Below are positions 2,457 through 15,743 of a stretch of 64,000 nucleotides of DNA, piece after piece. The position numbers and the translations under genes were made by a program. The stretch covers positions 310,001-374,000 of the forward strand of contig JASNGC010000003.1 in the NCBI GenBank assembly GCA_038659295.1, written 5' to 3'. Every line of letters starts with the position of its first letter. Positions within the stretch are counted from its first letter, which is position 1. Below the pieces are notes generated by a model that worked only from the letters and a program-made list of their open reading frames with translations, did not search any database and had not been told where the DNA came from. The DNA is from Enterocytospora artemiae (lineage: Eukaryota; Microsporidia).

Positions 2457-3338
2457 TTATTCGATATATGTAGCATAGTGTCTTTTAATAGAATCGATGA
2501 TAAACCACAGGCGTTCACACTCGGAGAGAGAGAAATATATCAGTGTGTTGATGTGACTTATCATATCATCAACAGTAACTTCAACAGCCTTCTCAAATTT
2601 CATCTTAATAGACTCCAATTTCTCATCAATTCGCAGTTTTCTGAATGTGTAATTGTTTTCCTTACTAAAATCGAGAAAATTACCAATCTGAAGCTTTGTC
2701 ATTACCTTATCTACAGATTGTTTCAATTCGGATTTGGTTGATTTGTGTATTATTGCTAGAGAATTTATATTGGCAATCATAAACTTCTCCAAGGTGGATC
2801 TTGGAACTGAGTTTTCCACCAGTAAAAATCTCACCTGTAAGGTTTGAACACCGAGAAGTCCCAGTAATGTGTAGTGCGACTTGGAGTTGATCGTGATTTT
2901 TATATCAGAATATTCAACTACCGCCCCATTCGATCCCAAACTGTAAAGCTCCAGATTGTGGAGTTGCTCTGAAATAATTGCCTGAAACTTATGAAACCAT
3001 TTGTTGGTAACTGGCCCACTTACCTGGCATAGTTCTGACGCCTGTGACACCTGGCATCTTGTGGCATAGCAGTACATTAGCTTTATGACCTGTGATATTT
3101 TTAAGTGAGTCCTAGAAAATATTGAATTCCTAAATACACTAATCTTTTTTTTACATACTCCACTTCCACATCTCCACGAAGCATATATCCCATCTTTCTT
3201 TTTTGATTTATCTAAATAAGTTTGATGGCCACAATGTTCACAGACCACTGGTGTGGAGTTTAAAATTCCGATTTCCCTAGCATACTCAACTGATTTCTCT
3301 TCTGTGGAGAGCCTTTCCCTAAGCTCTGGACATGGCAT
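2457..3338 (-). CDS. Transposase-derived protein of the IS1595/ISXO2-like (Merlin) family, catalytic triad apparently lost
   Basis: The 293-residue product begins with a zinc ribbon: C-x2-C at CEHC, then WRCGSGVCKKKISVFRNSIF, the Merlin/IS1595 pattern of a C-x-n-C half followed by S-V-R-x-G-S-x-F. A helical segment (LKISQVIKLMYCYATRCQVS) follows, like the family's HTH region. The RNase-H-like part is degenerate. Where the family has VEIDES, this reads VVEYSDIK. The second aspartate block (normally I-I-S-D-x-W) reads LAIIHKSTKSEL. No third acidic block is clear. The frame is intact, and CCCCC lies 2 bases before the ATG, as at normal genes of this window. I infer a domesticated or inactive transposase relative; its function is unknown. 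Confidence 0.6.
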   Translation of the reverse strand: MPCPELRERLSTEEKSVEYAREIGILNSTPVVCEHCGHQTYLDKSKKKDGIYASWRCGSGVCKKKISVFRNSIFSRTHLKISQVIKLMYCYATRCQVSQASELCQVSGPVTNKWFHKFQAIISEQLHNLELYSLGSNGAVVEYSDIKITINSKSHYTLLGLLGVQTLQVRFLLVENSVPRSTLEKFMIANINSLAIIHKSTKSELKQSVDKVMTKLQIGNFLDFSKENNYTFRKLRIDEKLESIKMKFEKAVEVTVDDMISHINTLIYFSLSECERLWFIIDSIKRHYATYIE

Positions 3339-6332: not shown

Positions 6333-6872
6333 AAGGGTAAAATGCAGAAAAATTTTTAAAAAAATCTATAAATTGTATGGTAGACAAACTCTAACAACTG
6401 GTGGTCCATCTTCAGGAAAATACCATTATTACGTCCTTATACAAGTAGATATTGTTTAAAAAAGGAGGTGGAAGGTTCTATCTGGTGAAAGGACATTGAT
6501 TTTGAAATAGGTTAATATTTAGCTTTTAAAATGCAATTCAAAGGGATATATCATCAAATCTCTCCAATATTCCACTTAAACAAAAAATACTATTGGTTAA
6601 TTTACAAAGTATTGTATTCAAGCAAATAATATTCTCGACGTTATTCTACTAGCCAATGATTTTTTAAGTTATGAATGGCAGACTTCCATAGTAAACTTAT
6701 AATTTAAGGAGTCACAACAATATACTCGAAAGAAAGACTGTTGTACAAAAAGAGTGTGGGCTTGAGATTATGGTGCTAAAGCACAAAATACCGAAAATTT
6801 TATCTATCACAAAAATCAATCTATATTACTGATATATTAAGGAGGGAGTATAAAATTACTTTGAAGTTAGGA
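6333..6872. other. Long spacer between divergent L35 and ZPR1-module genes
   Basis: About 540 AT-rich bases between divergent promoters. Short ORFs occur, but none has a C-run start signal or a recognisable protein. No tRNA or structured RNA was recognised. Confidence 0.5.
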
Positions 6873-6877
6873 CCCCC
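6873..6877 (+). promoter_or_regulatory. C-run start signal, first ZPR1-module gene
   Basis: CCCCC abuts the ATG at 6878. Confidence 0.6.
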
Positions 6878-7492
6878 ATGAATAAAGATACCGGAAAGAT
6901 TGTCAAGGGTGTCTGGATGTACAATGTGAAATGCAAGACATGTGGGGAAACTGCAACACTAAGGGCAGACATGATAAATGATGGCATTTGCCCATTGAAG
7001 CTTGATTTGATAAGTCGCTGTGATAGCTGTAAGACACATGAAGCAAATGAATATGAGGTTGTCTCCAACGATTATGGGGTTGAAATCACATGCCACTTTT
7101 CAGAACATGAAGATTTAGATCATTGGGTTTATATCAATTCTGGAGCAGAAATTAAACTTTTTGACGCAAAGGAGCTCATATACGAAATAAAGTCGGAAGA
7201 ATCTTACATCGACACTGTTGCTACATTGCTTAACCGAATTAAAGAGGAAAATGAGCAGAAATTTGACAATTGTGATGATATACCCCTTGACACCGAGATC
7301 CAGATCAATAAGGGTTTAAAAGCCATTGACCATTGGCTCAAGACAGGAACCTTCAATATGTCCATTTCGGATAACAGTGGATTTTCAAGGGTATGTCCCA
7401 AGGGGAAAACCTATAAGGACATAAAGGGCACCGAGCCGGAAAACCTAAATGAGGATCTGAAGATCAACCACTGCAAGGTGAATAAATGGTGA
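6878..7492 (+). CDS. Single-module ZPR1-type zinc-finger protein, copy A of a split pair
   Basis: The 204-residue product is one ZPR1 module. A C-x2-C-x25-C-x2-C zinc finger lies at about residues 19-51 (CKTC and CDSC), with exactly the ZPR1 spacing. It is followed by the A/B domain with YGVEITCHF, DLDHWVYINSGAEI, a TVATLLNRI segment (family TTVEGLL-x-I) and FNMSISDNSGFSRV (family F-x-LIIDDPSGNS). ZPR1 is an eEF1A-folding and eIF2B/SMN-linked factor and normally has two such modules in one chain of about 460 residues. Here each module is its own gene. Together they make 398 residues, and each has its own C-run. Confidence 0.8.
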   Translation: MNKDTGKIVKGVWMYNVKCKTCGETATLRADMINDGICPLKLDLISRCDSCKTHEANEYEVVSNDYGVEITCHFSEHEDLDHWVYINSGAEIKLFDAKELIYEIKSEESYIDTVATLLNRIKEENEQKFDNCDDIPLDTEIQINKGLKAIDHWLKTGTFNMSISDNSGFSRVCPKGKTYKDIKGTEPENLNEDLKINHCKVNKW

Positions 7493-7539
7493 TTGGAGAG
7501 ACTAATGAAATTTCTAAAAATATTTTAAACATTTTCTAT

Positions 7540-7543
7540 CCCC
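7540..7543 (+). promoter_or_regulatory. C-run start signal, second ZPR1-module gene
   Basis: CCCC lies 7 bases before the ATG at 7551, inside the 58-base spacer between the two ZPR1-module genes. It indicates independent initiation rather than a frameshifted single gene. Confidence 0.6.
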
Positions 7544-7550
7544 TGCTGAA

Positions 7551-8135
7551 ATGTCAGAATTGATCGAACTGGTCAAAGAAGATAAAATGAGCTGCTCTGG
7601 CTGTGGAGCAAGGGCAGTTAGTTCTTGGTTTTTAATAAAAGATACCAAGCCATGGAAAATGATGACACTTATCAACTGTCCATCATGTGGATCAGTGGAT
7701 AAAAAACAACTAGACTACATAGAGCTAGATTATGGAGTCGAAATAGTTGCAAATTTCACTAGCAAGCCCACCTCGGATAGGCTTTGTTTCATTAACAATG
7801 AGGCAATGATTTCAATTTTTCGATATGATCAAAAACTGATCGAGTTTAAATCAGAAGACTCATTTGTGGACTGCATCGAAAGCCTCCTTCTTAGAGCACA
7901 AGAGTTGATTGAGGTTGCATTTTCAAAAGATTACCTGACAGATCCAGTTATAGAGGATGCTTATGATAAAATAATACAGTGCCAAAGAGATGGGATTGTA
8001 AAAATAGTGGTTATTGATGGTAGTGGATATTCTAAGATATGTCCATGCGGAAAGGAATATACTGAGTGTCAAGAATGGGCATTTGAGGATCTAAACGAAG
8101 AAGGAGTGGTAGAGCATGTGCAAGTTCCAAAGTAG
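7551..8135 (+). CDS. Single-module ZPR1-type zinc-finger protein, copy B of a split pair
   Basis: The 194-residue product is a second ZPR1 module. CSGC and CPSC are spaced by 24 residues near the N-terminus, followed by DYGVEIVANF, a region ending FVDCIESLLLRAQEL (family TTVEGLL) and VKIVVIDGSGYSKICPCG (family IIDDPSGNS). It lies 58 bases after copy A, in a different frame, with stop codons between. Both copies share a GKxY block just after SG-x-S-x2-C-P that is not typical of ZPR1. I infer that an ancestral two-module ZPR1 underwent gene fission and that the products probably work as a heterodimer. Independent single-module duplication is the alternative. Confidence 0.78.
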   Translation: MSELIELVKEDKMSCSGCGARAVSSWFLIKDTKPWKMMTLINCPSCGSVDKKQLDYIELDYGVEIVANFTSKPTSDRLCFINNEAMISIFRYDQKLIEFKSEDSFVDCIESLLLRAQELIEVAFSKDYLTDPVIEDAYDKIIQCQRDGIVKIVVIDGSGYSKICPCGKEYTECQEWAFEDLNEEGVVEHVQVPK

Positions 8136-8649: not shown

Positions 8650-9195
8650 ATGCGAATTTCCTCTAAGTATAAGAAGATCCTCCGTACCAATAGTTCTCAG
8701 CTTTGCAATCTATTGTTATGTCTTGTTGTCTCCAACTCAGTGTGTGGTTTGTTGTTTTACTTCAAACTGAATCTTAGGATTTTCCTGAAATATTCAATTC
8801 CTGAAATAATAGGTCTTTTCTTATTGCAACGTATAATAATCCCCAAGGTAGAATATATTGAAGCAAAAGATGGTGATAAATGTGACTTCACTGACGAATG
8901 TAGTACAATGTCAAAGAAAAAACCATCCAGGGGCTTTCTCAGTTGTATGAGAGGTTTGGTTAATAATTACGAGTGCCTCAATGACAAAACCTGCAAGATT
9001 GTTTCTGTGAGAAGTTTTACTGACGGTGGTCTACCCTCATTCTACCTGGATTGTATTCTGTTCGGCTCCATTATGAAATTCCTTCGTCCATGGAGTTCAT
9101 ACAGTGTTGTTGTGTTTATTATAGGAATATTTCTTTCAGCATTCAACGAAGTATTTTATAAGCCATATGCTGCATTGAATAAATTAAAAAAATAA
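8650..9195 (+). CDS. SND2/TMEM208-like ER membrane protein
   Basis: The 181-residue protein has about four hydrophobic segments, in two pairs, separated by a cysteine-rich hydrophilic stretch (about residues 78-118). The start resembles TMEM208/SND2, a component of the SRP-independent ER targeting route: RTNSSQLCNLLLCLVVSNSV against the family N-x-RQLKNLHLTLIVSN. GGLPSFYLDCILFGSIMKFL is in the place of the family's GLTEYMFDVIYLTW. AACCC abuts the ATG. The cysteine-rich middle (KCDFTDEC, LSCMRG, YECLNDKTC) is unusual for the family. The assignment rests on short similarities. Confidence 0.45.
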   Translation: MRISSKYKKILRTNSSQLCNLLLCLVVSNSVCGLLFYFKLNLRIFLKYSIPEIIGLFLLQRIIIPKVEYIEAKDGDKCDFTDECSTMSKKKPSRGFLSCMRGLVNNYECLNDKTCKIVSVRSFTDGGLPSFYLDCILFGSIMKFLRPWSSYSVVVFIIGIFLSAFNEVFYKPYAALNKLKK

Positions 9196-14899: not shown

Positions 14900-15085
14900 A
14901 TGATTTTTCCTTATCAATATTGGATTTCTTTCATCTCAGCCATTATGTTTCTTTTAATTGCTCCTTTTCCTTGCCACTCCTTTATTGTTTACCTTAATTT
15001 GATCAATCTTTTAAATTATTTATTAATCTTCAGCAGCCCCTTAAATGCCACTCTGCTTAAAGAAGATCGAAGCAGCAATTACTAA
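14900..15085 (+). CDS. Possible small two-span membrane protein overlapping the next gene
   Basis: This is a 61-codon ORF with CCC at 14896-14898, one base before its ATG, which is the usual start signal here. The product is strongly hydrophobic: two spans (about residues 7-23 and 27-46) and a short charged tail. Size and topology are reminiscent of the small V-ATPase subunit e, but no diagnostic residues are clear. Its last 41 bases overlap the start of the next gene, in another frame. The C-run and hydrophobic pattern favour a real gene; small size and overlap argue against it. Confidence 0.35.
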   Translation: MIFPYQYWISFISAIMFLLIAPFPCHSFIVYLNLINLLNYLLIFSSPLNATLLKEDRSSNY

Positions 15086-15743
15086 GATGGATCATACATA
15101 CGATGCCAATTTCGGAGAGTGGATTCAAAATGAAAATAACTGTAAAATAGTAGGAACTCACATCCGCAAGTATATTAGTCATTACAAAGACTCTGATTTC
15201 ATCACCGTGGTAAAATGGATTGTAAAGGACTGGACATTGAAGGGAATAATCCTATTTGCTAAAAAACTCATAATTGATGATTTGTTTGAAATCGAAGCAA
15301 ATGGCATGAAAAGCAAAACATCCAATGTTAAAACCAGTCCACTTGCCGATACCCATGGAAATAAAAGTAACCATTTAGGTTCTAGAAATATAAGCAATAC
15401 CCATTACATCAATCTTTCCGAGTTATCGAATAATTCAGTCTATCGGTCGAAACTCAAAATTTTGAGTGGCTTGATTTACACGTGGAATCCAATTTTCATA
15501 TCGGAATTCCTGCTGGCTGCAACCACGGAATTTTCTCTTGAGGAAAAATGCGAATTCTACTTCCGTATTTTGGATGTTTTTGATGCGAAGAAATTGTCTG
15601 AAATACTTTCTCAAATGGAAAATAAAACTGATTTGACCACAAGAGATGCTATGATTGAAAGATTTAGACAGAATATTTACAAGGATACTGAAGATAAATG
15701 GAAAAGAACCAACAGCTTGACAGATGCATTCAATCTGATATAG
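15045..15743 (+). CDS. Unknown alpha-helical protein
   Basis: A 232-residue protein I do not recognise. CCCC followed by TTAA precedes the ATG at 15045, which marks this as the start; a second in-frame Met follows 14 codons later. It has a helical N-terminal half (about residues 20-85), a low-complexity Ser/Asn/Thr linker (about 90-135), and a second helical block (LKILSGLIYTWNPIFISEFL and EEKCEFYFRILDVFD) ending with a charged segment. No membrane span or catalytic motif is visible. Confidence 0.7.
   Translation: MPLCLKKIEAAITKMDHTYDANFGEWIQNENNCKIVGTHIRKYISHYKDSDFITVVKWIVKDWTLKGIILFAKKLIIDDLFEIEANGMKSKTSNVKTSPLADTHGNKSNHLGSRNISNTHYINLSELSNNSVYRSKLKILSGLIYTWNPIFISEFLLAATTEFSLEEKCEFYFRILDVFDAKKLSEILSQMENKTDLTTRDAMIERFRQNIYKDTEDKWKRTNSLTDAFNLI

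Follow-up and report, generated by a model that had tools for sequence, protein, structure and literature searches.

The ZPR1 proteins of eukaryotes, exemplified by yeast Zpr1 and by the mouse protein of structure 2qkd, in which two ZPR1 modules are tied together, carry two modules in one chain, and the GNS, TTVEG and IPEL signatures are typical of the family. Archaeal ZPR1 holds one module per gene. In PMC10869706, yeast ZPR1 is presented as a dedicated eEF1A-folding chaperone. Here, we analyzed 64,000 nucleotides of the microsporidium Enterocytospora artemiae (contig JASNGC010000003.1, positions 310,001 to 374,000; hereafter the window), in which two adjacent open reading frames (ORFs), A and B (Table 1), each encode a ZPR1-like module whose zinc finger, predicted beta domain, predicted helical hairpin (more tentatively so in B) and S-G strand follow the same order as in eukaryotic ZPR1. 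Our preferred reading, to which we assign a probability of roughly 0.6, is that A and B are separately started single-module ZPR1-like proteins, the sole ZPR1 detected in this genome, and that they arose and act in the manner proposed below.

Alignment of A with B shows them to be homologues, with identical residues in 56 of 187 columns (30%; E 1e-26), and both are very diverged, collinear ZPR1 modules. A joint profile of the two matched the archaeal and primate/yeast modules collinearly and over the full length, with an hhalign probability of 97.6 and a score of 79.9, compared with a maximum score of 21.3 in 100 column shuffles. The predicted model of A has the ZPR1 fold: the crystal structure 2qkd was the top Foldseek match (E 1.3e-9; runner-up E 0.19), and helices 114-130 and 137-156 form the predicted hairpin. 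The model of B was poor (predicted local distance difference test, pLDDT, 51.8), with 2qkd first by Foldseek at an E value of 0.02 and at rank 20 by VIA; this weak model contains two helices, at 109-125 and 132-147. The profile match, far above the shuffles, and the fold match of A thus bear out the ZPR1 kinship claimed by an earlier, sequence-only reading of this DNA. In Pfam, A had no match and those of B all fell below threshold (best E 0.02). Since neither protein reached the curated cut-off of PF03367 or PF22794, they are not Pfam-recognized members; because Pfam is blind to the pair, the ZPR1 label required profile-profile and fold comparison.

All four zinc-finger cysteines are kept in both proteins, spaced as CxxC-x25-CxxC in A and with x24 in B, whereas the eukaryotic rows (modules 1 and 2 of primate, marsupial and yeast) have x25 in 6/6 cases; both copies lie within the range of x22-28 found across 20 comparison rows. 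S-G-x-S is present as SGFS in A and SGYS in B, and the GNS form is absent. The sequence-only reading had noted these spacings and motifs, together with a shared GKxY block after the SG motif that it considered foreign to typical ZPR1, and all of them were recovered: the block, CPxGKxY, lies downstream of S-G-x-S in A and B and in none of the 20 archaeal and eukaryotic module rows, with a GKxY in row L096 occurring earlier, inside the zinc-finger region. Because the beta-domain and tail lengths of the eukaryotic rows stop at borders that we chose, the block is not claimed as an insertion. TTVEG-like and IPEL-like patterns, loosely defined and fitted to the same comparison rows, are present in all 20 of them and missing from A and B. 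The motifs retained in archaea are therefore eroded here, whereas the tail after G-x-S (33-34 residues in A and B) resembles that of archaeal ZPR1, 8 of whose 14 rows have tails of 29-36 residues. Among 30 archaeal genomes, drawn from 80 EF-1A loci and searched for ZPR1, 15 had a match (14 of which were used as rows), at a single place in each, unlike the two diverged tandem genes described here.

In contrast to the single two-module chain of eukaryotes, A and B occupy different reading frames, and the spacer closes every frame with a stop. Of 45 window ORFs that do not overlap and reach 100 amino acids or more, 33, including A and B, have CCC (32) or GGG (1) within 20 nucleotides upstream of the first ATG, against 15.6% of intergenic 20-mers for CCC/GGG and 7.3% for CCC alone, in agreement with the CCC- and GGG-like signals that PMC2803860 describes for Encephalitozoon and other microsporidia. 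The earlier proposals of two adjacent one-module genes of 204 and 194 residues, of a 58-base spacer with stop codons and CCCC 7 bases before the second ATG, and of separate start signals therefore held at every point, and no unbroken frame runs over 7490-7551 in the sequence. Readthrough or a simple assembly frameshift was excluded by the stops in the three spacer frames and by the C-terminus of A, which ends where that of B does.

The origin of the pair is where our results depart from the sequence-only reading, whose ZPR1 assignment, single-module genes and start signals stood and whose gene fission did not. In a true fission, A would be module 1 (M1) and B module 2 (M2), the two having stayed in their original order while the former linker acquired a start signal. 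The gene order would correspond to M1-M2, the model of A aligns to module 1 of 2qkd (residues 47-225) and the poor model of B to module 2 (248-398), each being a single best alignment and not a contest between modules. If A derived from M1 and B from M2, the likeness between A and B would be expected to fall below that of each to its own module. However, the identity between A and B (29%) exceeds that of either copy to module 1 or module 2 (A-M1 16-19%, A-M2 14-17%, B-M1 16%, B-M2 14%, or 17.6% for B-M2 on 165 complete columns); module 1 and module 2 share 31% identity within the primate protein and 33% within that of yeast. The gain of CPxGKxY and the loss of TTVEG/IPEL, common to both copies, likewise argue against fission. 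Alignment of each copy to the two modules by hhalign gave no sign that A matches M1 and B matches M2: the single-sequence scores were 26 on module 1 and 29 on module 2 for A, and 23 and 22 for B, and the score of the two-row A+B profile (40 on module 1 versus 30 on module 2) was not counted as decisive.

In a maximum-likelihood tree of 22 rows (LG+C20+F+G4), A and B were sisters with support of 100/100, and both fission groupings were rejected (A within the M1 group, p-AU 0.0002; B within the M2 group, 7e-6). The tree included 2 of 120 listed ZPR1 proteins, P0001 (Aotus nancymaae, for the primate rows) and P0111 (Macrotis lagotis); locus L097 (no ORF extracted) and P0105 (module borders unmatched) were dropped. 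The best tree placed the pair with M1 at an unstarred support of 54/77, and its placement with M2 survived (p 0.325). When one copy was left out, the remaining one moved to the archaeal side, again unstarred (A 83/100, B 41/65), and neither module was rejected for A alone or B alone. Because the branches of A and B are long, fission was simulated as a control: 500 alignments were generated under the best fission tree, using 165 complete columns from 12 of the 22 rows. None of the 500 attained the four-point excess of the real data, 28.8 (simulated mean 10.4), but the margin was narrow, with a maximum of 28.2.

Several points weigh against our reading. The A-B identity alone was attained in 11/500 of these simulations, and the control is rough, because branch lengths of the fission tree lay at the program limit and simulated identities exceeded the real ones (A-M1 mean 26 versus 18). 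The grouping might still be an artifact of long branches or of gene conversion between the modules, and conversion before a split would give the same appearance as duplication. Within the set of rows compared, A and B have no closer relative than each other, and plain fission, disfavored by the trees, the four-point identities and the simulation, is not supported and appears unlikely. The loss of one module combined with duplication of the other in tandem fits better, as does fission accompanied by gene conversion.

Searches of the 3,015,070-base genome (5 contigs) with family, human and archaeal queries detected no other ZPR1, including the full-length copy whose presence would have counted against the sequence-only reading; these queries also miss A and B, so an equally diverged third copy unlike them would escape, which again tells against our reading. 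A scan of genome contigs with the two human modules gave no match. In the protein collection, the human query gave 4,410 matches among 7,995 candidates scored, the named ones among the best 120 being mammals, whereas A yielded 73 candidates with none at E<=1, a chimera joining the whole of B to a portion of A yielded 430 with none at E<=10, and no further microsporidian relative was found. Scans of viral contigs with B and with A+B gave no relative, and the PDB sequence search returned no chain for A and two insignificant ones for B. In the literature found on microsporidia that mentions ZPR1, the name occurs only in a reference, and in literature on gene fission in microsporidia, ZPR1 was absent from the titles and abstracts shown. 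A and B might instead descend from ZPR1 but have given up its work as they diverged, a reading that would match this lack of relatives in the protein collection, as well as the sub-threshold Pfam results and the eroded signature motifs. We regard such a loss of role as decidedly improbable, given that the zinc-finger cysteines are retained, the full-length collinear profile match far exceeds the shuffles, and the searches of the genome yielded no further ZPR1 that might assume the role.

The U6 small nuclear RNA (L111, C1:329689-329789) scored 57.6 bits, above the Rfam cut-off; its model rang in 7 of 14 prokaryote controls, in none of them above the cut-off. Its presence means that spliceosomal splicing may be retained. 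An intron joining A to B into a normal two-module ZPR1 would draw on this and on one GT...AG pair (7489-7591, 103 nucleotides) that leaves the frame open across both modules, yet it is highly improbable, as this is the sole joining pair for donor sites within 7400-7499 and acceptor sites within 7480-7619, has the donor GTGATT, removes the ATG of B with its own CCC signal and leaves no linker, while the C-terminus of A stops in the alignment at the end of B.

Among nearby genes with a Pfam match, the pair is flanked by a TCP-1/cpn60 chaperonin and uL29 to one side and by a Na/H exchanger and PIP5K to the other. Of 43 PDB chains matching this uL29, the top two were 7qep, which we take to be from Encephalitozoon cuniculi, and 6zu5, the Paranosema locustae ribosome, in keeping with a microsporidian genome. 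Window ORFs at 2457-3338 (-), 8650-9195 (+) and 15045-15743 (+), of 181-293 amino acids, had no Pfam match at E 0.001. Elsewhere in the genome, the Rfam microsporidian small-subunit ribosomal RNA (SSU rRNA) model matched at full length and about 1179 bits at five places (5 of 45 candidates scored), a match that also points to a microsporidian but alone is not proof, as 9 of 14 prokaryote controls likewise scored above the cut-off of this model. Four of the five copies lie 8-29 kb from a contig start, which suggests subtelomeric ribosomal DNA.

Table 1. Features of the ZPR1-like locus (window positions) and SSU rRNA copies in the genome
Feature	Position	Strand	Details
ORF A, single ZPR1-like module	6878-7492	+	204 aa; stop TGA 7490-7492
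ORF A parts			zinc-finger cysteines 19-51, beta domain, helical hairpin 114-156, S-G-F-S 167-170, CPKGKTY block
ORF B, single ZPR1-like module, paralogue of A	7551-8135	+	194 aa; stop 8133-8135
ORF B parts			zinc-finger cysteines 15-46, S-G-Y-S 158-161, CPCGKEY block
Start signal ACCCCC	6872..6877	+	abuts ATG of A
A-B spacer, A+T-rich	7493..7550	+	58 bases; stops in all three frames
Start signal CCCC	7540..7543	+	7 bases upstream of ATG of B
SSU rRNA copies	C1:783561-784839, C1:9500-10778, C2:8039-9317, C3:9425-10703, C4:27291-28569		near-equal scores

Under our preferred reading of two single-module proteins, an ancestral two-module ZPR1 would have lost one module, the remaining one being duplicated in tandem to give A and B, or would have been split and homogenized by gene conversion. 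A and B may then pair, or act in turn, in place of the two linked modules of yeast Zpr1, most simply as a heterodimer, folding newly made eEF1A through their zinc fingers and helical hairpins; the likely role of the pair would thus be that of a two-subunit eEF1A-folding chaperone. The genome encodes an EF1A homologue (L105, C5:200429-201781) with 38% identity to Thermococcus EF1A over 421 residues, which we take to be low for an EF1A. A second EF1A-type match (L106, C4:202014-203270; 31% identity) may, we presume, be an Hbs1/eRF3-type relative. A bolder and only tentative possibility, which we would not at present favor, is that single-module ZPR1 re-emerged in a eukaryote and that its two tandem duplicates, now obligate partners in a heterodimer, reconstitute the two-module eEF1A chaperone while coevolving with an eEF1A that has itself diverged.

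In a microsporidium, a gene of this kind can escape standard domain searches, and absences reported in fast-evolving genomes therefore need profile-profile or fold checks. If our reading is correct, the locus would represent a natural reversal of the step from the archaeal one-module to the eukaryotic two-module ZPR1, and a genome using two unlinked sister modules would offer a direct way to ask what each module does and what their linkage is worth.
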